From Pocillopora verrucosa (Eukaryota; Cnidaria; Anthozoa; Scleractinia; Pocilloporidae): a stretch of DNA of 64,000 bases. A model generated the notes under the pieces. That model ran no database searches. It saw only the letters and a list, made by a program, of their open reading frames with translations, and was not told where the DNA came from. The position numbers were made by a program, and so were the translations under genes. Shown one piece after another: positions 3,495-24,900 of this stretch (position 1 is the stretch's first letter; the number at the start of each line of letters is the position of its first letter). The stretch covers positions 2,355,129 to 2,419,128 of the forward strand of contig NC_089320.1 of assembly GCF_036669915.1 (NCBI RefSeq), in the 5' to 3' direction.

Positions 3495-5180
3495 GTAAGT
3501 TTGGAGAGAATTATTTATGGAAGTCTGCTTGCGGTGGCAAGTTAGGATCGTACAAGTATATTGCTTTTATCGACCCTTTTTAAGAAAGAGATTTCAAGAG
3601 GTGCATTTTGAAACCTTTTTCAAGGTCCGTGCGCTAAGATCAGGTAAAAATTTAAGGCCAATAGTTTTCTGTCCTCACCATACCAATTAATTACAATTAA
3701 TGAAATTGCCCGAATGGTGAAAGAAGAATTTACATTCATTTATTTCAAATTGAAGCCCGATGCTCTTTTTCGTTGGACTACCTTTGTGACAACAACAGCA
3801 ACTAAAACAACAAAAAAATTAAATCATAGGCGAAAAATGATTGAAAAATGTTTAGTGCTGTAGTCAGCATAGGTAGAAATTCCCTCGGCAATGTCAGTCC
3901 CAGGTGGAGAAACTTGTAATTTGCTTTAAATATTTTTTTTTGCGATCGCTCGACAAATGTAACTGAGGGGAAGGAATGCTTGAATTTGGGAAGTGAGTTT
4001 TATTAGGATAAGTGCCACTTCCTTATCGCACTGCAGGGAAAATACACGAGTTGCCTTTTTGCTGAAGCGGAACTTAAAAGCTCATCGAATTGTCTGTAAA
4101 TTAATCTCCGTGATCCCAAAATCTTTCATTATGTCACGCTCTGTACAAGTAGTGATCATTCGAACTATCGTCTGTTTGATGCATCCTCACAACTTCTTTG
4201 ACATGAGAAGTTTACAATTTTATTTCGGACATAAGCTGTTATATAGCACTTTGAGCAATGAAACTCCGCTGTCCGTTCAACCAGTCTTTAGAGTGATGGA
4301 CAAACACTAATGGTACAAACATTCATGTCACATTTATGCAGCACGTACACTTATCATGCTATTGAAAACGTCACCCAACATCGTTCTTGTATCGTCCATC
4401 GATTCACTATTCAAGCGTCACATAGCATGGTTAGAATGAATGGGGATTAGACCATGTTCAGACAGGCGATAGTGCATTGGATTAAACCAGTGACGAAATT
4501 TTATTCAGTTGTTAAAGAACAGAAAAATGTGTAGGATACTGGTAAGCTCTTATTAGAAAATTTCTACGTCGAATGATCAAATTATTGTCAAGGAGGCCCT
4601 GTTATGCGACCACTTGGGTCAGAAGAATTATGCTGGAAAATTAAAGCATTATACCTTTGAGCATCACCCTGAAAATACTTCATTACACCAAAAAATATGG
4701 TGAAATTTAATCATTCAAAATAATAGCTTTTAAGAGCTCTTCAACCTCAAACCCCCTCCCCTCCCCACCCCCACCCCCATTTCTATTCCTATCACTAACA
4801 GGTAAAACTTGCTAAGAAAATAAAGGGTCTTATCGAAGTTCAGAACACAATATCTTATTGGCTTAAATTCTTAAAACGCAAGCCAGCAAAGCAGGCTCAC
4901 TATTGACAGCTCTTACGCAACAGGACTATCTCTTGTTGAACTGTAAAATCAAGGGGATTTTAAAGAAGTTTTGTCATTATAGCGTCATTATCCTCGATGC
5001 CTTAATTATAGCATTATACTCAGAATTATAGTAGCATGATTTAGCTGACCTAGCGACCAAACCGTGTTTTATTATGGCTATCAACCGAATTGTTAAAAAT
5101 CATTTCCTTCAGGTGGAAAACGTGACCACTTGCTGTTTCTCTCTAAAATATTTTCTTTTCAGTTCGGTGTTGACATCAGC

Positions 5181-6116
5181 ATGAAATATTTTGTCCTGTT
5201 CCTGGTCGTGATCCACCAAATGAAAAATGCCGAGGCCCTCAAAAAAGGTTATGATGAGACAGAGAACTTAACATCGCGTGCTAACGGAGTCTCTGGCCTG
5301 ATGCGCGTCGAGGAACAGACTAAACGCTTTATCCGTGTATCGCAGTTGGCTGTCGGTGACGTGATACGCGGCATCACCGGGATAGATAAGAACCCTGCGT
5401 GGTGCAAGGTATTGGCCGTATTTCCAGTGGCACATGGTCAGACACAGACTACGTATGACGGGTTCACTGCAGGTCAGATGGTCGTAGAGCGTACAGTCCA
5501 CCCGTATGGCGCATATGGAACGTTACGTACAGGTTCTGTGTTCACACTAGCGACGGAGTGTGATGCTATGGTAAACTCAGCCGGAAAAACGTTCACGCCC
5601 TTAAGTACAGCATTCTGTCCATTCCAGTTGAGTTGGAAACAGTATCTTCAGTTGATCAGTTCGATACGCCGCCTAATCAGCCTCACTGGAAATTTCTGGT
5701 TTAACCTGAATGTGTACCACGACAACGAGACAGCACCTGTACCGCACTGGATCGACCGGCTTCCTCAGTTATGCCAGGAGCTCCTGCAGTGCTCGCGACA
5801 GGACCTTTCGCAGTGCTTAAAACTTCGCAAGGTTATGGCAGAATTTGCGCAGACGTACCTTAGCAAGGAATACGCTGAGGTCGTGGAAAAAGCTCTTACG
5901 AAGATTTACGGCGATACAGAGCAAAATGACGAGGTTGAGAGCACAACAGTGGAACATTTTTCACAGGGAAGTAGGCGCGTGTTTCTGATGATGGTTGTAG
6001 GTGCCACTGTGCTGCTTGTAGCACTGATACTAGTTGTAGCTGTGTTCATTAATTTCTACCGCCAAAGAAAGGTCAGAAGGGTAACTCGTTATTCTCCGGT
6101 GAAGGTTCAGCTTTAA
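5181..6116 (+). CDS. Type I membrane protein with a degenerate Hint-like domain
   Basis: The single coding exon gives 311 aa. I start at the ATG at 5181 rather than 5130 because a splice acceptor (TTTTCTTTTCAG) ends at 5162 between them, and because the downstream Met opens a clean signal peptide (residues 1-19). Residues 48-147 resemble a cnidarian-expanded Hint module: KRFIRVSQLAVGDVIRG matches the hedgehog/intein 'eL.vGD' block, and FTAGQMVVE lies where T-x-x-H is expected. A Cys-containing region (146-212) follows, then one transmembrane helix near 267-291 and a short basic cytoplasmic tail. The catalytic hallmarks appear lost: there is no Cys before residue 75, and Gln99 sits where the block-B His would be. 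It is probably a surface protein without self-processing. The Hint assignment rests on recalled family similarity. A distant AATAAA at 6728 is a possible polyadenylation signal. Confidence 0.8.
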   Translation: MKYFVLFLVVIHQMKNAEALKKGYDETENLTSRANGVSGLMRVEEQTKRFIRVSQLAVGDVIRGITGIDKNPAWCKVLAVFPVAHGQTQTTYDGFTAGQMVVERTVHPYGAYGTLRTGSVFTLATECDAMVNSAGKTFTPLSTAFCPFQLSWKQYLQLISSIRRLISLTGNFWFNLNVYHDNETAPVPHWIDRLPQLCQELLQCSRQDLSQCLKLRKVMAEFAQTYLSKEYAEVVEKALTKIYGDTEQNDEVESTTVEHFSQGSRRVFLMMVVGATVLLVALILVVAVFINFYRQRKVRRVTRYSPVKVQL

Positions 6117-9237: not shown

Positions 9238-9505
9238 TCCACCTGAATGAAGATTTTAGATATATGAAAATTCACATATTTGCACTGCGGTGGAGTTGGC
9301 TTGTTAGCTCAATTGGTAGAGCGCTGCACCGGTATCGCAGAGGTCATGGGTTCAAATCCCGTACGGGCCTGAATTTTTTTTTTCAGGTCCTATTTACAAC
9401 TACTCGTTTCAGTGGTGTTCTTAGCTGCGAGGATCTTCTAATTTCATCTCTCCACCGCAGTGCAAATATGTGAATTTTCATATATCGAAAATCTTCATTC
9501 ACTTG
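9238..9505 (+). mobile_element. tRNA-derived SINE inside a long palindrome
   Basis: The head at 9298-9370 folds as a tRNA: a 7-bp acceptor stem (GGCTTGT with ACGGGCC), A box TAGCTCAATTGGTAGAGC, and B box GGGTTCAAATCCC. The anticodon loop CCGGTAT has C instead of the universal U33 and would read GGT, which eukaryotic tRNA-Thr does not use. A tail follows with a CCTGAA/T-run/TTCAGG hairpin. The whole element is flanked by near-perfect inverted arms of roughly 50 bp (9238-9296 and 9450-9503), which share the CCGCAGTGCAAATATGTGAA tail segment of the SINE family. Confidence 0.8.
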
Positions 9506-9545: not shown

Positions 9546-9692
9546 GGCTTGTTAGCTCAATTGGTAGAGCGCTGCACCGGTATCGCAGAGGTCATGGGTT
9601 CAAATCCCGTACGGGCCTGAATTTTTTTCCAGGTCCTATTTACAACTACTCGTTTCAGTAGTGTTCTTAGCTGCGAGGATCTTCTAATTTCA
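9546..9692 (+). mobile_element. Second tRNA-derived SINE copy, truncated tail
   Basis: The tRNA-like head (9546-9618) is base-for-base the same as the copy 248 bp upstream, and the body continues to AGGATCTTCTAATTTCA with only a few differences. It then joins CAATAATTCCACCT, a phrase that also sits just before the first copy (near 9229), so the pair looks like a local duplication or nested insertion. Confidence 0.75.
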
Positions 9693-10408: not shown

Positions 10409-13400
10409 TTAGAGTGCAAATTTATTTTCGGGCACAAGGTGTCCTTTCTTGATGCATTTCCAGATCCAGGATGGTGAAACTAGTTTGACTGGTCGATCCA
10501 TCGTATGACCACCCTGCAGAATAAAACATAAAAAGAAACAAAAGTAAGTCCAACAGCGTCCTATTTTCAATTCCATCTAAAATTTTCACCATCTGTTTTC
10601 CAATTCTATACGCTAATTGCTCTAGTCTAACTGTTTTCTGATGACTACAACAGGAGTTATAAAAAACATTTCTTCATGCTGCTGAACATCTCGGTTGATA
10701 GTGTCTGTGCCATTTAAGATGTGAGTACCAATGCTGAGAATGAAATTCACATTGGTTTGTTTTTGAGACAAAAACATTGTGCGACAAATACTGGATGAGG
10801 CATGGAAATAAGCCGAGATTATGACAAGAATAAACGTCCGTTTCACCTTGGGGGAGAGGGTACGGCTACGCGTGAGGTGTAAAGGAAGAAATTTGAATAT
10901 TATCGTGAAGTGTTCAGTGTGAAATTTCAATTTAACGTAAAGGGATACAGTCACATACGAGTATTTGCATGTATTGAATAATGTGAATTTTGGAAAGCAC
11001 ACTCACCTTAGTGTTGCTCACAATATGGCTTGCAGTCGTCTTTTCGAACTCACCGACTACATCTCCGTCGTAACTACAATATATCACTTAATTAAGGGAT
11101 TCAACCATATACAAAAAAATCAAGAAAACATCTAAAAGCGTAATCAGGAAATGAGTTAACTTAGCTCGTGCGTGATGCTATTAGCTTTGGAAAGCCACGG
11201 AAGAAACCGAATATCATAGCTTGACATGGCTTTGTTTATTTGACTGTTTAAACGTGTAATTGAAGACTGTGGTTTGTTTAACATTTTCGCTGTTCGAAGG
11301 CATTAAAGGATACGCAATGATGTATCTTCTGAGTTTCGCAGAATCTTCAAGATCGTTTGCGAGAAATATGGTCAGTCCTTGAAAAATATCTTTTAGAGTC
11401 TAGAAAAATAAAACAACTACAAATCAGGAAAAAATTACGACCAAAAACTGCAAAATGAAAGAAAAAAGACAACGAGTGTCAGAAGAACTATTTTTAGTGT
11501 GGTGATGAAGGAAGCAAGTCCAACAATAAATGAAGCATGAAATAAGGCCACTCAACTTTACTAAACAACACAATAGTCTCTTTCTGAAGAAAAAAAAATG
11601 TAGATTTTCATCACAGCTGGACTTTCGTCTTAAGGAGTGAAAAATTTATTAAGCTGGGGGACCCTAAGTCACTGACCGCAACTTCTTACGATCGTTCTGG
11701 CAAAACATTAGGAGCAAAAAAAGCGAACAAATTGTTCAAGGTACCTTATTCTTGCTTGGACTAGATTCATCGCCATTGTCATTCTACACAACAGAAAAGG
11801 GTAAACAGCACATGAGAGAAATATCAGCGATAAAAAAAGTTCCCTTTGACCTGCCTTGAATCTCTCCGCAAATAAATTCTCCCCATTTTTTTTCTTCCTG
11901 AATACTTAGTAACCTTGAGGAGGTGGGAGATATCATCAGGTTTTCACATTCATCCTCAAAAACGAAGGTGTGGTTCAACGACGAATTTCTACGCTAAAAT
12001 TTTTTGTTTACAAACCTGCGGATGGCTGAATTTCTGCAAATGATCTTCACTCTTCTGATAACATTTCGATCCGTACTTGCAGGCTGACTTGGCCTAAGGA
12101 GGATACGAAAAAGGTCCTTATTAGGAATTGCAACCAAACCATCAAATTCAAAAGTGAAGAATTTGCAAATTCCACCACAAAATTGCTACGAACATCATCA
12201 ATTTTTCATTCTCTTACATGACCTTAAGTCTCTACGGTGATGAAAAAGTTATAGTAAGGTCTCTAAATGGCTAAGAGTTGTGCGCAAAAATTTCAAAACG
12301 GAAACACAACCAAACAGAAATGTTGTAAGCCCTTCTTCAAAGTTAAGTCCTAAGAGTGAGATTTTCTGAACCGCGTCTTAACGATAGACACATGCGCACA
12401 CTAACCCGTTTACTAGGAGAACTATTTTCTTGATAGTCAAGTGTTTTTCTCTTCCTTGTTATTTTTTCAGTCTCGTTTGATTCCTTGGAAGGGCTTTCGT
12501 TTTTCATCTCCTTGTCCTTAGATGGAGGATCGTGATCATCGTCAGTTGCATCATCATCATCAGCAGCAGCATTATCATCATCGTCATTGTCCACAAGGTC
12601 AGCCACATCTGTAAAAGATAGGTAAAAATTATCACTGTGTGAGCGAGTAACGATGTCTTTCTTTTCCCTAAAAAATAACTTACACCAACAACAACCATAC
12701 AGAGATGACATATAAACAAACAAAGAAATAAACGCAAACTTCTTTATTCCAAAATTGAAATGCACTTCAGAAGAGACACTGTCTTGAAAATAACTGCTTA
12801 AGGACCACTATTTTATTACTTACTGGTTGAAGCTCTCGAGTTCTTGAACAAAACCTGCGGGAGACAATGACTCCAAGTGAGACCTTGAAATCAAAAGGCA
12901 ACAACAAAAACACAAAGATCGAACAAACAAACAAACAAATCTTCAGATACCTTCAGATGAGGTAGATCGTTTGCAGTTTGCCAATCCTTGTCGTCTCTGA
13001 TCCGCGTTACTCGTGGAAATCTGATCGATATACCATCAGCAGTGTGCGTCGTTGATTTGCTGAATTCTGCCCCAGTTATCTCCCACACTGGGGATTTCTG
13101 AAGAAAACAGATACATCAATTGTGTGCTTAACTCGTTGAGTAAATGAGGTGAGAATGGCATTATATATAACTACAGCAAAAATCATTCTTACGCGGTTAA
13201 AGAATAAAACTTTACCTTTGGATCTTCGACGACAAAGTCAGGAACTAAAGTTCGGTGTATGTTCAACCATAGAGGAACTTTAGAAGGGTCCTGCATCAAA
13301 TCACATCACCTTATTAATTCACATAACTGTTTAAGATTTCCGTAGCTGCTAATATCAAAACAAATAAAGAAAAAACAAGATCAGAAACAAGAACCGAAAA

Positions 13401-16400
13401 AACAAAAAAAGGAAAAAAAATGAAAATACTTAACAAGCAAAAAAAAAGGGAAGATATTGAACATTTAAAGATTTCGACTATAATCTTTTGTATAAGGGAT
13501 CTCGGCATAGTCCTACTGTTTTGGTACCCCATAAGTATAAGCACTACTGAGGTATCTGTTGTTCCACGTCACAAACCTTGCTGATTTTCTTCATTTTCAG
13601 TTCCCTATTAAGCCGCTCTAAGGTTTTATCATCATGACCATTGCCACACCTAGCCACAGTACACCATTGCTTTGCGGCTGGATCCCAGACACCCATAAGA
13701 AAGATCGACATCAATCCACCTTTGTTGCCTGTTCCATAGTAGGCCCCTAGTACAACCAGGTCAGCAGTATCTGCCATGGCACCTTCCTCGAGATAATCCC
13801 TTTTCATCTTGTAAACAAACATCAGACGGAAAAAAATTAGTCACGACCTTAAGTCTAATACGTTTCCGTCAAGCCCTTTCACTCAGTAAATAAGTATAAA
13901 TTCTGCAAAATGAAGCAACCAGGAATATTACAATTCCTTCTGGGCGAGATGTTAGTGCATAGAAAGTTACCGCCCGCTTCGCTACTCACAGTGAAGCTTC
14001 GCTATCAGCTTTCCATTTTGGTAAGAACTGCTATGAAGAAACACGACTTTGTAGCCTAGCTGATAAGTAATGCTTTTTAGGTATGAAAAAAACTAATACT
14101 ATTGTAAAAGAAAATATATCTTGCAAGAACCGCAACTACAACAAATTTTAAATCTGGGTCTTTTGGCCTCATTTACCTTGAGCCAATGCCTTTTTCCTGG
14201 TTCATAAATACCCTGAAAAAAGGAAGACAAACATATGGTTGAATGTTTGGCGATCAAATGTTAGATCTTTAGCTTCCAGAGGCGCATGAAAAAGATTAAT
14301 GTTACTTTCTATGGAAGACTGCTTTTTAGAGGCAGCTATCTGCATAAAATAAACAAGAGGAATTGTATTTCTGAAATATTTGCGCAATTCATAGTCACCT
14401 CATCTCGTGTCCAACTTCGCTTAGCTCGCATTTACGCGACGTGTATTTTAGCGCGTACTTTTGCTCGACATATTCTTTATAGCATAGAGCGGTCATTTTA
14501 ACGGGGCGCGTAATTTGACATGGACTGTATTAGCTTCAAGCGCTCTGATGAACTCCAATTTATTACACAAATCAAACTTCATAATTATAATAACCAATAG
14601 CATTGCCGCCTTACATTGATATCCTTCAGTACCAGTCCCTCGAGGCCTTCTTTGATGGCACGCGTCATCAACTTTGAGAGTTCTTTTTCTGTCTAAAAAG
14701 GGTGACATTGCAGTTCAAGTCTCAATGAAAAGTTTACCTGATTAGTATGTAGTAACAGTATGTACTCATCTTGTACTTGAATCAAGACAGAATTCATATT
14801 GCCAAAAGGGCAACTAGTAAGCTGAAAATCTTATACCTACTTATATGTTGTAGATTAATATTTGAAAGTGTATAAACATCTACATGCACGTGCACAAGGA
14901 AACTATTTATAATAACATTACCTTTAGGAAATTCATTTCTGATAACATTATTTTGTTTGGGATGACCGTGACATTTTGTTCCAAGACTTTCCGTCTTTCT
15001 GTCATGCTCCTTAAAAACATGGAGTGTGTCAGGGAACAGTAATGTTAGCAAACCAAAACCAGAACAAACAAAAACAAAACAATAAAGCAAACATAAAAAC
15101 AAGGGAAAGGAAAGAAAACAATAAGCTGTCAAATGAACTTCAAGCTACATGTACAAATTACTCTGTGAAAGATACATTGTCGTTACAAGACACACGTGGT
15201 TCCATTAAGTGACTACAGAACTTACTTTTTCATCATGTTCTCATCATTAAACTGCAGGCAATCAAAGATAAACAAACAAACACTGGCATCTTTGAAAGCC
15301 GATTTCTGCAAACAAAAATACAAGAGAGAGAGAGAGAGAGAAGGCATTTTAATAGTTTCTCCCAGCGGAATTTTCTCGTATCACCAAACTCATCTACAAA
15401 CTGTGATTATCCATTTCATCATACCGTAGTATTAATTAATAAACGAGGAATGTACTTACACTAACACTTAGTCTGCAATTACCTTGTGAATGCCTAGAGT
15501 TCCAAAAGGGAGAGGTTTGCTTGTTTTGTTGTCAACAAGTAACACCTTAAAAGAGAAAAAAATTGAAAAAATGATCAGAGACTTATGTCAATAACTACAA
15601 GGAAAAACACAAATCTGAAGAAAAATTAACCCAAAATGCAAGAGCAAAATACCTCACTATCCAATATGAGACTGTTGCCATGAGGACAAGCTTTTGGAAG
15701 ATGATCTTTTATGGGTGCTACCTAGTGTGATAAAGACAAAAAAGTAATGGTGCTGCATGTTACGTGCATGTCAAAAAAGCAAAACATAGTTGTACCACAA
15801 GACAGTGAAGCTCTAAACAGCTTACCTTATGTGCAAGGACAGGTTTGAGGCTGCGGCTGAAAAACTGAAACTCATTACCACTCTTGTGAACCTTAAAAAG
15901 TAAATGTAAATATAAATTAATTGTCAATATTAATTGTAAAGCAACCACAGATTACTAGAGCATTTTTAATCTTTAGCATGATAACTTTCTTTGTTCTTTC
16001 AACCTTTTTTACTAAAATTTGTCGAGAACATTAAGAGAGATTCATTCTTTATCACTTCTGGGAGTTAAAGTATTAAATGCAAAGCAGATTACTTGGACCC
16101 TCTCTCCATCATATTTAATCTCCGCATACATTCCCTTGGGACATTTCTTCAATGCCTGTGAAAAACTCTTACAAGCTTCTGCCTGTGAAATACAAAAATT
16201 AAAGACAGTACCTGGTCACTAAGCCTATGAGTACTCCCTTGTTGTAAGATGCACATTTCTCCCCTGGAGGGAGGATTTGAGACGAGTCCAGGAGAAGTTT
16301 GCCTTGGGGAAGTGCGAGACCCCTTACAAACCTCTTAGGAGATCGCATTGCTCAAAACATAGTACTTAAGCATGGGCAAAGAAACACCTGTACTGATAAT

Positions 16401-19400
16401 GAAGGGGTCACTTTAACTTAGATATATGTACACTTTCTGTAGGTACTCACTGTGCTAACCAAGAACAAAGCAAAGGAAACAATTCAAAACAGCATTCATT
16501 CTACGTAAACAGTGTAAGTAACAAAGTAAACAAACTTCATACCAGCATAGGTTTGACAGGTGTCATCAAGGAAGCTTTAATACTCAGTTTTTTACTCATT
16601 CCTGGCAAAACACCTGCATTTGATTCCTTTTTCTGCAGGCATCGCTGTACAACATCTGTGAGGTTGTTTGATGCCTGAAATGCCTCATATGCATTTGGGT
16701 CAATTGCATCTAAGCTATGTGCAAAGAACAAATAAAGTTCCACATCATAAGCACGTAATTTTCCTCATGCTATCAGAAAAAAAAAACCTCATTAACTTTT
16801 TTACTGCCAGATGTGATTACCAAGTAATTTCTTCCTATAATATCCATATATTATCCAGCAAACAGGAAACAAGAATGCTAAAATGTATCAGGTACATGTA
16901 GCAGTTGTTAGCTTGATCTAACACCAAATTCTCGTGATTCATTTACAAGCAGCTAGAGGGGACAATTAACAATCAGATTTTGGGAGTGAAAAGGCTACAA
17001 GTGCCACCACAGTGAACAATCAACTCATTCTCTCTCAGCTCTATGTGGATGAGAACTGAATGTAATCTACTACTTTTAACATCCTAAAACATGAACATCT
17101 TGAGGTGCATAGAAAATAAACTGAGTTTACTCATTGAAAATATAAATTGGTAAGTTACAAGTAAATGATTTCACTTTCCCTCTTTATCCAGCATTCCCAA
17201 TGCAACACATTTAAAACATGACCAGTAATGGCAGATGGTTTAGCCATTTAACCCCTGGGGGAACTAGCATGTCTTTTCCCACCAAGGTATCACTAGGCTC
17301 ATAGGAATAAAGGAAATGATCCGAAACTTCAAAACCTCCTGAATTTTAATTATAGTAAGTGCAAGTTATAAAGAATATCACTTGCTGATGTTAGGGTGTT
17401 AAGGGTGATCAAAATAGTATATATAACATGCTATGAAAAACAGAACATTTTAAAATCAAGGTTTAATCATTTCCTTCACGTATTATGATATTGGTGTACA
17501 TCTTCAAGAAACACAGTTTAGCAATGTGTCATTTGTGTTATCATAATGGTAACACACCACTAATGATTGCATATTAAATACGCCAACATTAGTGGTGTGC
17601 ACCTTCAAGACACACACAGTTTAGCAATGCATGATTTGTGTTATCTTAATGGTACACTGATGTACCACACTACTAATGCTTGCACGCTCAATAAGCCAAG
17701 CCTTGTCACTGTGCATTTTTAAGACACACACAGGTTTATATGAAGCAAAACATGATTTGTGTTATCTTAATGGAGACACACCACTAATGCTTGCATATTA
17801 AATACGCCAAGCCCTATTGGTGTGCATCTTCAAGACACACACAGTTAAGCAATACCAATATAAAAAGATCACAATAATTGGAACCCTGTGGATGACAGAG
17901 TGTACAGCAACCTTACAATCACCAAGCCTTATTGGTGTGCACCTTTAAGACCCACACAGTTTGGCAATACATAGTTTGTACTATCTCAGTGGTAACACAC
18001 CATTAATGCTCTCATATTAAATACGCCAAGATTTAGTGTGCAACCTTTAGGACACACACAGTTCATCATATTATGCAGAGAGACTGCAATAATTGGTTTC
18101 TTTTGGATGACGCAGCAGACAGGGACCTTAAAATCGCCACCCTTTGAGGGGCATCTTGCCCCATTGCGGGTTCTCTCCAATTGGGCTGAGTATTTACATT
18201 CACAATGTATGTTGCAACAATTTATGAGGCCCTGTCCACACTGGCCAAATTTGACATTGAACATTGTCATCATGTGAATTGTTCACACTAGTCCTACCTG
18301 AAGACAGAGGTTTTAGGAATAATGAAGTTGTTGTTTTTGGTAATTTTTAGGCAGGATATCATGACCCAAGGAAGTTATCGGTGGAACAGTCAAAATAAAC
18401 CCTCTAACTCCTAAGAGTGATTGACATCTCATTTCTACTTGCTGTATCACAGCTAAATCACACATTAAGGTGATGAGAACAAAAGATTTGATCACCAGTA
18501 AAAGAACCCCTTGATTGCCACACAAATTCTCCTGGTCAGTACCATAGTAAATGTATGGAAAACAGTATGAAGAATATATGTATGTAAACAGATGCTGGGG
18601 TGTAAAGAGTCTATTATTCTTGAACAAACATGTAATACAGATTTACAATAAGTTTTTTTCAGTTGAAAAATTTGGTACTGGAAAACATGTTTTAATTAAT
18701 TCTTACACATGTTTTGCTCCTGTGTTCATTCGCAGGTCATGCTTGATAAGACGAATGATGAACTTCAAGTCATTTGCAGAGCATCTAAAACAAAATAAAG
18801 ACAAAAAAAATAAAAAGAATTTACATTTGTATATGCTAAAGACTAGAGAAGCACAGCTGTTGCATCAGCTTAAAAAAAAGTTAGGTAATTTTAACAAAGA
18901 TGTCAAAATCAATTTGGCAAAGTATTAAAAATTAAGGTGGCACTGTACCTTCTTGTCATCTTAGTGAGTTCCCTCTGTTGATCATCTTCCTTTGTTAGAG
19001 TTTTCAATTTGTCAAGAAACGCATCAACCTTGTATCAAAAGAACTAGTTAATTTGTAACAATTTAATTTCACTCATGAGATTTAACCAAAAGGTACCTAC
19101 ATGTGTTACCCAGCAAAGTAACTTACCTCTTGTAATGAAATCAAACTCTTCTTTAGAGGTTTTAGCAGTGAGCTGCTCTGAAAAAATGTGCTCAAAGTCT
19201 CTGATACATCACCCTGTGGAAGTGAAATAGGGTTTAATAAGACAAGTCTTATCTCTGAAAAAGAAAAACATCTTCACATTCTGTTGAAGTAACCCAAGTC
19301 TTCTGAAGAACTCTCCTATCAGAGGAATTAACACAAGCCCAGGTTCTAGGCACAGCAAAGCTTGAAAGAATAGATATGCTATTCTTTAAATATTATTTGA

Positions 19401-21703
19401 ACAAGACAATTAGTGAAGTCAGTTTCCTTACTCAAAATATTACTGTACCTGCTCTAAGTCTGTTATCATGTCATCTTGGCTAGATCCAAAAATCTAAAAA
19501 AAGTTCAAAGAGGCATAATAGCTATTAATCATTACAATGCATTTAAAAATATTTTACATCTATCAGAGATTTCTTGGTGTGACAAAACCTGGGATTCAAT
19601 ATAACATACATAATTAAGCAATTGTAAAGAATGGACAACTTTAGTCTTGTACTTATAGGGGTTATACTAGGTACAGAATCATAGAGCTGTTTCAAGAAAG
19701 GTTGTCAGAAACAAAAAGACAACAGTACATGCAACAAATTCTCAAAAGGTAAGCTGAGTATCCAGTAATCAATGAATTTTGACAAGTCATATAAACAAAT
19801 AAATTAATCAAACCCACTATGCCTTATTATCCTCTCTGATTTCCTTGAAATCCTGAGGTCAAAGAACAATGATCTGAAAATTACCAACAATACCTTTTGG
19901 AGTTGATGCATGCACTTTTAAGCTTTATTTAACACAACCTTTCTTAAAACAGCTGTATACAAGACAGGGCATGAAATTAAATTTTTTTTCTGATAGCCAC
20001 TTGGCTCCTAATTCAAAAGAAGTTGGTCACCATTTTCAAAGACAAAAAAAACCTTTTTTTATGCTGCAGCGTTGCAGATAAAGATCTTTAACTGCAAAGT
20101 GGACACTAGGATGGATGATATACAACGTTCAAGCTCACCTAACTCCAAGATGGCATCTAGTTATCAATTATTGAGATGCATGTGCTGTGTTTTGGAAACA
20201 AACTTAAGGAGGAAGTTTGCCGCGGATTTATCTTTGCAACTCTTTTTAATTCACTTTATCTCTTGGTAAGGTTATGATGAAACATTCTAGTTGCCAATTT
20301 GGTGACTAATTTTCAGGATTTGGTCACCAAAGTGAAAAATTTAGTCACATTGGCGCCTGTATCAGGTGCAATTTCATGCGTTGCAAGATTGTTCATGAAC
20401 TGTAATATTGTCACAGCTACCTGACTGTATAATTTAACAAGTTGTTTGCTTTGCAAGTTGTACACTCTCTTGTTGACTGCAGGCAGTAGTGTTTTCACCC
20501 ACAGTGTCAAGTCTCCTGTAAATCCATCTGGGGGAAAATAAAGCTGATCTTAGCAAACACAAAAGCAGTAAACAACAGTTTACTACAAGTAGCTGTTTCT
20601 TGTAATAACTGATTCTGATGTACCTCCAGAGCTCCCCTTTGCAAAGAATTCAGACAAGATCTTGCTCTTGTTATTATAGCTTGGTTCTTCAGCCAGATTT
20701 ATGCAGATTCTCCGGAATTCTCGGAAACTGTTGTCTTTACTGTGTTCATCAGTGTCCCCCTTGAGAGGTGATGAGCTATGACTTCCACTGCCAGAGCTTG
20801 AAGACTTTTTACCATCTGCTGGACCAACCTTTGATGGAGTTGAGGGTTTTGGTTTTCCATATGGAAGAGTTGACTGTACAGCTTTCTTTTTAGGTGAAGA
20901 CATTTTGGCAGCTAGATCTTTTAAAAAAAATGAGACCATGTTAAGGAGAATTATTTCAAATATTAGCCAAGCAGAAATATGCTTTCATTCGTGCCCATCC
21001 TTAACCCTTTACTCCCTAACATTAATATGCATATTCTCCATACTGTTCTCTACACATTTCCTGAGGTGCTGACTAAGGAGAATTTGTATACAATCACAAG
21101 CTTCTTTAATATTAGTTGGTGATCATTTTCTTTATTCTCATAACCTTAATGTTAGACTCAGTGATGCTACTGTAAGGAGAATTACTGTCACTTTCCGGGA
21201 TTAAGCTTAATTAAGGTGGCATGAAAGAACGCCCAAGAAATTTTAACTATTACAGTAACTAAAGCGTTTGGATCCACGTTGAAACGGGATTGAAACCCTC
21301 TTAGAAGACATTGCAAACCTTTAATGAGGCTTAAAATTTTCGCCTGATCATCATCCTTGAGGTTCTCAAATCCGCCCAAATCATCAGTGCTGTCAATTTT
21401 CTTCGTTGTGGCACGGGCCCGCGACAGAGTATCGAAAATGCAAGGAACGTGGTACCATTGTTTCATCATCCCACCGTCCTCGCCGAATGGATTCGAAACC
21501 AGCTTTCCTATTCGAGTCACACTCTTCTCTATCTGTTGCTTGCAAGTTTTGCATTTAGCTCTTCCCTGTGCAGCATACTCTACCAAAAATGGCTTGTCTT
21601 CCGCGCCGTCCGCCATGATGTTCAGAGCTAAGACAATCCGTCGATGGTACAGGGTTGAGTTTTCCTTGACAAGCTGTACGCTACGTCTTGAAATCCCAAA
21701 CAT
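10409..21703 (-). CDS. LIG3: DNA ligase III, 26 coding exons, with added PBZ finger
   Basis: ATP-dependent ligase of base-excision and single-strand break repair, and the mitochondrial ligase in vertebrates. All junctions are GT/AG and the exons sum to 960 codons (959 aa; human about 1009). Exons (minus): 21319-21703, 20624-20917, 20421-20527, 19449-19493, 19127-19213, 18949-19028, 18707-18784, 16543-16714, 16093-16182, 15826-15891, 15653-15721, 15483-15545, 15226-15305, 14922-15009, 14615-14692, 14177-14212, 13577-13807, 13216-13290, 12951-13097, 12824-12854, 12406-12608, 12016-12093, 11745-11783, 11314-11399, 11007-11073, 10409-10513. Domains: PARP-type zinc finger (ligands C51, C54, H85, C88), DNA-binding domain, nucleotidyltransferase with catalytic Lys439 in EIKYDGER, OB fold to about residue 755, an acidic/basic linker, PBZ finger (836-861) and BRCT (about 875-950), the XRCC1-partner domain. 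Met1 gives a basic leader; Met30 (21616) gives the nuclear form. Confidence 0.95.
17239..17406 (+). repeat. Degenerate copy of dispersed repeat family A
   Basis: In LIG3 intron 7. It keeps the family phrases TTTAACCCCTGGGGGAACTAG, AATAAAGGAAATGATC and TGATGTTAGGGTGTTAAGGG, but the middle is poorly conserved. Confidence 0.5.
17488..18066. repeat. Tandem repeat of about 100-115 bp in LIG3 intron 7
   Basis: Six anchors of the type CTTCAAGACACACACAGTTT recur at about 17501, 17603, 17715, 17827, 17942 and 18045. Each unit also carries ATTTGTGTTATCTTAATGG, CACCACTAATGCTTGCATAT and TAAATACGCCAA. CACCACTAATG and CATTAGTGGTG form an 11-bp perfect stem inside one unit (near 17557-17600). Confidence 0.85.
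18399..18592 (+). repeat. Dispersed repeat family A copy
   Basis: About 190 bp, beginning CCTCTAACTCCTAAGAGTGA and ending CAGTATGAAGAATATATGT. The core features ACACATTAAGG, GATCACCAG and CAAATTCTCC. It lies in LIG3 intron 7. Confidence 0.7.
21001..21196 (-). repeat. Dispersed repeat family A copy, reversed
   Basis: Reverse-oriented copy in LIG3 intron 1 (between 20917 and 21319), reading TTAACCCTTTACTCCCTAAC, GCATATTCTCCATACTG, TTGGTGATCATTTTCTTTAT and GTAAGGAGAATT. Confidence 0.75.
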
Positions 21704-21915: not shown

Positions 21916-24900
21916 ATGGACGACTTATTTGGCGATCTCCCTCCACCTTGTAATACTTAGAAAACTTTTCTGTTTGTCTTGATTTGTATTTATTTGTGTA
22001 ATAGAGTGTGGAATTTTTTATTTTATTTCAGCAAGGGGAAATAACGAGTCGAGCTCAGCTGGAAATTTGCATGATGACCTTCCTTCATCGGAGAAAATTG
22101 AAGACAAGAAAAGGAAACTCGAAGCTACGGAAGAAGATGCTTGTACCCCAGCGAAAAGACCACTAAAACGTGAGGTTTTTGAGATAAGAACTGAGACGGT
22201 GTTACTTTAAGGGTAGAACACATGGCTTTTACGGTACACACCCTCTCGTGTCCTCCATTTAAGTCGATGATAATGAAAATGACAAAATTACACAATGTGC
22301 CACTATAAAACTATGCAATTTCCTCTAACTATATTTAACTTTTCGACACGACTGATATAGGTCTTAAAACCATTTAATGTTTAAGAACCTCCTCGCTTTA
22401 ATGTCACAAGTAGTTACATGCAACTGTTGAAAGACACACTTCGAATTCTTTGTGATGCAACTATTGGAGACAATAAACTCAAACAAGTTTCTGCATCTTT
22501 CTTTATTAGAATCTAAATACAAACTAAGGGGCTTTGTTGCTGAGAGGAAAGGAGAAAGAAATGACATGCAAGATGCTCACGTTATTAACAATGATTTCCT
22601 GGATGAGTTTGGTGCAGACAAACCTCTTGGATTGTAAGTCTAAATAAGCAGGGTTTCTTTCAAATAAGTCATGGCAGGAGAAAACTGTAAAATTACAGGA
22701 CAACTCTCTCCTCCCCATCAAAATGTGACCATAGAATTCTGCGTATTAGCCAAAGGAGTAGCCTCATTATAAGGGCTGCAAGAAGTGTGTTTCTCTACCT
22801 GCGGGAAGATTTGAGATGAGTCGTTAAGGAGTGTGAGGGAGGTCTGCTACTAAAAGTTGTTCTCAATGCCAGACCACTGGTAGAATTTTCATCTACTTGC
22901 ATAGCTCAAGGCCTCATAAGGTTATAAGAGATTCTGCCTCTTATCTAATGAATTCTGAAATTGCAATTCTTGTCATAGGATCTGCTATTTAAACATTCTT
23001 TCCAGAAGAACCTTTTACTTCTTTGCCTACCAGAAAGAATCCTCATTCCTACAAAAAAGAATTCCAGATTCTTGAGGCAAGAGTCTCTGAAATTGCGATT
23101 CTGTTCATAAGATTTGTGACTAAATATTCTTTCCAGAAAAACTCTCTGCTTCATTGCCTGCTGAAAAGAATTCTCATTCTTGAGAAAAGAATTCCTGATT
23201 CTTGCAGCAAGAGTTTCTGAAATTGCAATTCTATCCATGAGATTTGCAATTAAACATTCTTTCCAAAAGAACTCTCTTCTTCATTACCTGCTGAAAAGAA
23301 TTCTCGTTCTTGAGAAAAGAATTCCCAGTTCTTGGAGGAAGAGTTTCTAAAATAGAGATTCTTCTCAAGATACTCAGATGTAATGCATTCTTACCACAAG
23401 AATTCTCTTCTATAGTCAATCTTGTTTCAAGAACCTTGATTCTCCATGAAAGAATCACCATTAAAATGATTATTCTGATAAGAATTTTAGTTCTTAAGAG
23501 GAGAATATGCTATTTGGGGAATTTAGAGTGAATGAGGACCCGGTCCTACTAATAAGTAACCAGTATGGAGAATATGCATACTGATGTGAGGTTGTAAAGG
23601 CCTAACCTGCAGAGCAGGCACAATTTTTGGTGAGCAAGTGCCCAGTATTTTCTTGGTGAAATTTCTAGCTGCCATCCTTGAACTTTACAATGGAGGAGGG
23701 CTGGAGAGAGGGAAAAAAATGTAAGAAGGGGGTGAATGACAGTCAAAAGGCAGGAGAGGGGAGGGAATGAAGTAAGTTAACTGGCTCTAATAAGACAGTG
23801 GCACTGCAGGCTAAAAAAGGGTCAAACAAGCTTGAGTTAATGTTTCTTTATTGTTTGTCTTGTGCTTGTAGCTCTCGAATGTGTTACTATGGAGTGTTTG
23901 ATGGACATGCTGGCCCCAAAGCTGCTCAGTTTGCAGCTGAACACCTGCACAAGAACATTGTGCTCAAGTTTCCAAAAGGTTGATGGTAAATTGATGGCAA
24001 ACTTTAGTTTACTTATCGACTTACTGTTAGTAATTTTTGACTTCCTGTGAGTTTTATGTTGACTTCCTCTTTGACACTTTTCTTTCCATGTACAGGAGAA
24101 GCTGCTAACAAAGACAAAGAGATAAAAAGATGTGTAACAGATGCATATAAAAAGACTGATGAGGAGTTTCTGCTAGAAGCATCGAAGGCGTAAGTCTCTA
24201 GTTATCACTGGTAATTGCAGTTGATTTCTCATTGATGGGGAAGTCAACACTCAGTTTTGATAAAAAACAATTAAAGGGTGCAGTCTGTACAAAAGCCTAG
24301 CTGCTCATTCAGCCAGAGCTCATTTCAGTTTCTGTGGCGTGAAACTATTCAGATTATTGCTACTCCTCCTCTCAACTCCTGGATGAGATGCCAGTCCATG
24401 GGAGGTTAAACCCAGCATTTTGTCTGACTTCTAGATCAGTTCACAAGTATCCATTTATACTCCTGGGCCCAGTTGTTTGAAGATGAAATTTTAACTTGGG
24501 TTTCTATATTCCTCTGATCAAAATCTTTTTTGGGGTGATTTTCTGTAATAATCATATTTCAGACAAAAAGAATTCAACTGAATTTTCTTTTAAATCATTC
24601 AGATCTGAAATCAGATTTCACACTAACCCTGGGTTATCTTGACCCAGCTTTGTACAATGCTACACTGGATGAAGTAAGGCACTGTGAGTCAGGGTAAAAT
24701 ATTTTGCCCTAATTTCTCCATACTTAAAAATGATTAACAAGGTTCACTTTTAACATTGCATAGGTCACCAGTTTGGAAAGATGGATCAACTGCTGTCACT
24801 GCCCTTGTTATGGATGATGTTTTGTATGTTGCAAACCTTGGTGATAGCAGGGTACTGTTGAATTATCACATACATTTACCTTTGATTTATTTTTAAATAA

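Follow-up and report, generated by a model that had tools for sequence, protein, structure and literature searches.

In Pocillopora verrucosa, exon 22 of a DNA ligase III (LIG3) gene encodes a zinc finger of the PBZ (poly(ADP-ribose)-binding) type, in frame, within the linker between the ligase core and the BRCT domain. As the sequence-only reading had proposed, a PARP-type finger, a PBZ-family finger, and a BRCT domain are thus matched by Pfam in one LIG3 chain. On the strength of its sequence, this single, probably poly(ADP-ribose) (PAR)-binding finger is likely to add to the recruitment of LIG3 by XRCC1, without replacing XRCC1. LIG3, which seals single-strand breaks in DNA, may therefore be able to locate lesions on its own in addition to being guided by its usual partner XRCC1.

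LIG3 gene model and the PBZ-type finger of exon 22

The window (i.e. the whole stretch of 64,000 nucleotides that was analyzed) contains 26 coding exons on the minus strand (21616..10409), from which a protein of 930 amino acids was rebuilt, running from MADGAEDK to the stop codon. The model has no internal stops and consistent phases, and all 25 introns are GT-AG. Searched as a whole, the protein showed the architecture of DNA ligase III, with an N-terminal PARP-type finger (zf-PARP, residues 13-97), an ATP-dependent ligase core (ligase N, 163-334; ligase M, 385-579; ligase C, 607-716), the PBZ finger (808-832), and a LIG3-type BRCT domain (LIG3_BRCT, 846-919). The E-values were 2.7e-24 for the PARP-type finger (PF00645), 6.7e-62 (PF01068), 4e-36 (PF04675), and 8e-14 (PF04679) for the core, and 3.2e-22 for the BRCT domain (PF16759). 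Among solved ligases, the core was nearest to LIG3 (3l2p, 862.6 bits), far above the best LIG1 chain (168.4 bits) and the best LIG4 chain (157 bits). Together with the set of Pfam domains, this similarity identifies the gene as LIG3.

According to Pfam and the gene model, the PARP-type finger is encoded by exon 1 (21319..21616, minus strand, as are all features of the gene). Exons 8-19 (12951..16714) encode the nucleotidyltransferase and OB-fold domains of the core (residues 385-716). They are followed by an acidic, Asp-rich linker with a basic end (RKRK ... SPSKR) just ahead of the PBZ finger (exon 21, 12406..12608), the finger itself (exon 22, 12016..12093, residues 807-832), a short linker from the finger to the BRCT domain (exon 23, 11745..11783), and the BRCT domain (exons 24-26, 10409..11399). 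The open frame also extends upstream of MADGAEDK by 29 in-frame, Arg-rich codons (21617..21703), starting from an ATG at 21703. This ATG explains why the finger had earlier been numbered 836-861: the exon was correctly delimited, but its residues are 807-832 when counted from MADGAEDK, an offset of 29. Mammalian LIG3 has a dual-start arrangement for mitochondrial and nuclear forms, which the upstream in-frame ATG resembles. The Arg-rich extension is a possible mitochondrial leader.

Exon 22 is translated as AKSACKYGSKCYQKSEDHLQKFSHPQ. The exon alone matched PF10283 with 48.4 bits (E = 8.9e-13), well beyond the cut-off of 22.7 bits. This is the profile search by which the sequence-only reading had proposed to check the finger and, together with the intact 26-exon model, it confirmed a PBZ finger encoded in frame. 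The match was retained in the context of the whole protein (40.4 bits, E = 2.8e-10) and when all 353 Mb of the genome were searched in six frames (E = 3.2e-9). Matches to CCCH-finger profiles also appeared, all of them under their cut-offs, while NCBIfam, a prokaryote-oriented library, gave no match to the finger. The only solved proteins matching exon 22 at E < 0.01 were two APLF sequences, both ungapped. In the alignment with APLF PBZ1 (E = 5.7e-9), the presumed zinc ligands C811, C817, H824, and H830 have the APLF spacing (C-x5-C-x6-H-x5-H), and Y813 and Y818 align with the adenine-stacking aromatics Y381 and Y386. Exon 22 thereby keeps the Gly, both Cys, both His, the Phe, and both tyrosines of PBZ. 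Q819 stands at the position of APLF R387 and is followed by the basic residue Lys820. According to the cited passages of PMC6264785, all three of these APLF residues (Y381, Y386, and R387) contact PAR. AlphaFold2, run with no alignment on a 34-residue open frame (exon 22 plus eight intron-derived residues), gave no usable support: the top model of five reached a mean pLDDT of 73.8 (43.7-58.1 for the others) and a pTM of 0.34.

The consensus printed in PMC4030884 is [K/R]xxCx[F/Y]GxxCxbbxxxxHxxx[F/Y]xH, where b is a basic residue. At its two basic positions, exon 22 has Gln819, which is not basic, and Lys820, which is. The earlier statement that every fixed position of the consensus is matched therefore holds for the ligands and the tyrosines but is too strong overall; the consensus used for it did not include the basic positions. 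As printed in the cited part of PMC4030884, the consensus has one residue more ahead of the first His than either APLF or exon 22.

XRCC1 and the predicted role of the finger

Elsewhere in the genome, XRCC1 is located at C6:24.03 Mb, with XRCC1_N exons and a first BRCT domain (PF12738, E = 3.8e-6). Its C-terminal BRCT domain was assembled from hand-joined pieces, which matched the solved XRCC1 BRCT2 with an E-value of 8.3e-39. The claim of a BRCT2 depends on this joining, since Pfam did not recognize the raw frames that hold the pieces: of ten open frames, four were left unmatched at E = 0.01, namely these two (both in L017) and two near TDP1. LIG3 in turn has kept its BRCT domain, which in mammals pairs with that of XRCC1 (the solved complexes 3qvg and 6wh1 contain both). 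A second zf-PARP gene is represented by three further matches at C7:4.27 Mb, one of which lies above the cut-off; these matches would fit a PARP1 gene. Separate from XRCC1, an XRCC1_N domain also occurs in another gene at C2:17788974-17790897 (L012), and CPIC zinc-finger-like repeats were seen by eye in a nearby open frame.

We suggest the following mechanism. Exon 22 would place a single PBZ finger on the flexible, partly acidic linker between the core and the BRCT domain of nuclear LIG3. Once poly(ADP-ribose) has been synthesized at a nick by PARP1-type enzymes, neighboring ADP-ribose units would be bound by the finger, probably weakly. Combined with the nick-binding PARP-type finger and the contact of the BRCT domain with XRCC1, such binding could provide avidity, and LIG3 might arrive faster or dwell longer at the break. 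We infer zinc binding, PAR binding, the inclusion of exon 22, and the effect on recruitment.

The sequence-only reading had gone further, proposing that the finger brings LIG3 to breaks without XRCC1. A predicted PAR reader inside the ligase chain would be suited to such a route, and the arrival of LIG3 at replication sites without XRCC1 is called an unresolved, open question in the cited passages of PMC8136790. However, an XRCC1 with both BRCT1 and BRCT2 and the BRCT domain of LIG3 are all retained. Since neither side of the contact between XRCC1 and LIG3 has been lost, an additive role fits better, and we regard a bypass of XRCC1 as improbable. A LIG3 that naturally contains a PAR reader, confined to one exon of 26 residues, would offer a direct test of recruitment with and without XRCC1.

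Two features count against an additive PAR-binding role, namely Gln819 where APLF has the phosphate-contacting Arg387, and the presence of just one finger in LIG3; for the APLF tandem, the cited passages of PMC4030884 give a more than 1000-fold advantage in binding over a single finger. The finger might accordingly fold and bind zinc but no longer usefully bind PAR, being either a relic or a module for another ligand (RNA or protein). Besides Gln819, such a reading could draw on the divergence of the LIG3 finger, which, in an alignment of three PBZs of this genome, is the most divergent, with 35 and 36% identity to the other two, and on the resemblance of PBZ to RNA-binding CCCH fingers described in the cited part of PMC4030884, of which the CCCH matches below cut-off are reminiscent. 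Against it stand the conserved tyrosines, Gly, Cys, His, and Phe, and a score more than twice the cut-off. Furthermore, for the single PBZ of human SNM1A, which has fewer of the contacts, the cited passages of PMC11199599 report PAR binding in vitro (slot blot) and a requirement in early recruitment, although the SNM1A peptide printed there lacks both tyrosines and both basic residues when aligned by eye. Gln819 may lower the affinity for PAR but does not exclude binding, and loss of PAR binding seems unlikely to us. That LIG3 can have an affinity for PAR is known from the human enzyme, whose zinc finger (ZnF) is described as PAR-binding in the cited part of PMC11624282; the apparent novelty is a dedicated module.

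Splicing of exon 22

Exon 22 comprises 78 bp with phase 0 on entry and exit and joins its neighbors in one frame. It is flanked by tatcctccttag/GCC and CAG/gtttgtaa, with GT-AG at both introns. Scored with a profile built from the other introns of the gene, its donor ranked 12th and its acceptor 15th among the 25 sites of each kind in LIG3. As decoys, 4 of 673 GT and 20 of 664 AG dinucleotides in the gene scored as well as the exon 22 sites. The splice sites, earlier described as good, are thus of ordinary strength for this gene, and the size and phase of the exon were as stated. Frame and splice sites indirectly suggest that exon 22 is included in LIG3 mRNA. No processed LIG3 copy was found in the genome itself; all four matches were exons of this gene.

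With 78 bp and phase 0 on both sides, skipping of exon 22 would keep the frame, and alternative splicing is thus possible. The exon could even be an optional cassette that most LIG3 mRNA skips, with a minor isoform carrying the finger; for that isoform, an additive role through PAR binding would still apply. Survival of the frame upon skipping is what speaks for such a cassette, but the symmetry says little, since 13 of 24 internal exons (exon 22 counted in) have phase 0 on both sides, and splice sites of ordinary strength do not suggest weak inclusion. We therefore give the cassette only a small chance. That exon 22 is a chance intronic open frame resembling PBZ is very improbable, given the E-value across the whole genome, the exact phase match, and the ordinary splice sites.

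Other PBZ genes, known systems, and neighborhood

Among 27 candidates scored in the six-frame search with PF10283, three places reached E ≤ 0.001, and all three lie above the cut-off. As the search proceeds exon by exon, it can miss fingers that are interrupted by an intron; the numbers are therefore lower bounds and do not show that PBZ is absent from other genes. Besides LIG3, the strong places belong to an APLF-like gene and, unexpectedly, to a TDP1-like gene. The APLF-like gene (L015 and L002, C7:10894274), named by its architecture and by eye, has a tandem of PBZ fingers. The first of them is interrupted by an intron, whereas the LIG3 finger is contained in one exon. In the TDP1-like gene, the finger (54 bits; C7:2377097-2377174) is located in the first coding exon (L014:1038-1193, plus strand, PBZ from 1095). 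Two of four downstream frames tested matched Tyr-DNA phosphodiesterase (E = 7.3e-14 and 3.6e-7), for which reason an assignment of this locus (C7:2.377 Mb) to HPF1 was rejected. The first coding exon can be spliced in phase to the next TDP1-like exon, from the donor CACCCAG/GTAAGT to the acceptor ctcatag/GTTATGAC; of five AG listed, this acceptor and one other are compatible in phase. In the alignment of the three PBZs, the APLF-like and TDP1-like fingers share 13 of 24 residues. A profile of all three, compared with solved structures, found no CHFR chain.

The closest known fingers are those of the APLF tandem (2kqb, 2kuo), which share with exon 22 the CCHH spacing, the equivalents of Y381 and Y386, and an ungapped alignment. 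APLF differs in having two fingers with Arg387 and in being an accessory repair factor, not a ligase, whereas LIG3 here has one finger with Gln819. Three further systems, as described in the cited passages, resemble the LIG3 of Pocillopora in part. These are (i) ligase K / ligase E of bdelloid rotifers (PMC6264785, PMC10665377), which likewise carry PBZ on a DNA ligase, joined by a flexible region and C-terminal to the core, but are horizontally acquired bacterial-type ligases, not LIG3, with one or two PBZs among Pro-Ser-Thr repeats and, in those passages, no mention of a PARP-type finger or BRCT domain; (ii) DNA ligase III of Dictyostelium (PMC5087659, PMC8529158), which has an added module of ADP-ribose-binding type where vertebrate LIG3 has none, but a macrodomain, a fold unrelated to PBZ; and (iii) Ku70 of Dictyostelium (PMC8529158), a core repair factor with a PBZ missing from its vertebrate orthologue and required for enrichment on chromatin, which binds double-strand-break ends and does not act in nick ligation. 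Human LIG3 shares the PARP-type finger, the core, and the BRCT domain. The cited parts of two reviews (PMC4030884, PMC4245714) list APLF, CHFR, and SNM1A as the only mammalian PBZ proteins; the earlier statement that human LIG3 has no PBZ agrees with these lists. TDP1 is likewise absent from the list in PMC4030884.

Possibly, though we hold this only tentatively, several single-strand-break enzymes of this animal lineage read PAR themselves, with LIG3 and TDP1 each having a PBZ finger, besides XRCC1 and APLF. If so, end cleaning and sealing could be drawn to PAR in parallel, XRCC1 would be one of several routes, and in vertebrates the reading of PAR would have become restricted to a smaller set of proteins. 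The two fingers would also suggest that PAR readers on the core enzymes of single-strand-break repair were lost in vertebrates or had never been present there.

Among the matches listed for open-licence literature, in the portions of text returned, no description of PBZ in LIG3 or TDP1 was found. In PMC4245714, a survey of PBZ among repair proteins outside the vertebrates, the word 'ligase' is nowhere in the main text. Both the domain and the enzyme are known, and their pairing is apparently undescribed. Automated domain databases are suspected to list PBZ in some invertebrate LIG3 entries already. Scanning exon 17 (77 amino acids) against two contig collections revealed no animal LIG3 orthologue: in viral_contigs, one of 12 stretches with the pattern was confirmed (query residues 19-65, 34%), and in genome_contigs one of 220 (residues 49-65, 65%, in a bacterial metagenome-assembled genome).

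Several other elements were noted in the window. About 2 kb past the start of LIG3, on the opposite strand, an open frame (23771-23980, plus strand) matched PP2C with 18.4 bits, just below the cut-off of 20.3. An uninterrupted frame of 339 codons (5097-6116, plus strand) begins, by eye, like a signal peptide and has a stretch resembling a transmembrane segment at its C-terminus; compared with Pfam, it gave nothing above cut-off. Finally, two tRNA-Thr(GGT) genes were predicted 3′ of LIG3 (9298-9370 and 9546-9618, plus strand). Their flanks appear similar by eye, and the pair is probably a local duplication.
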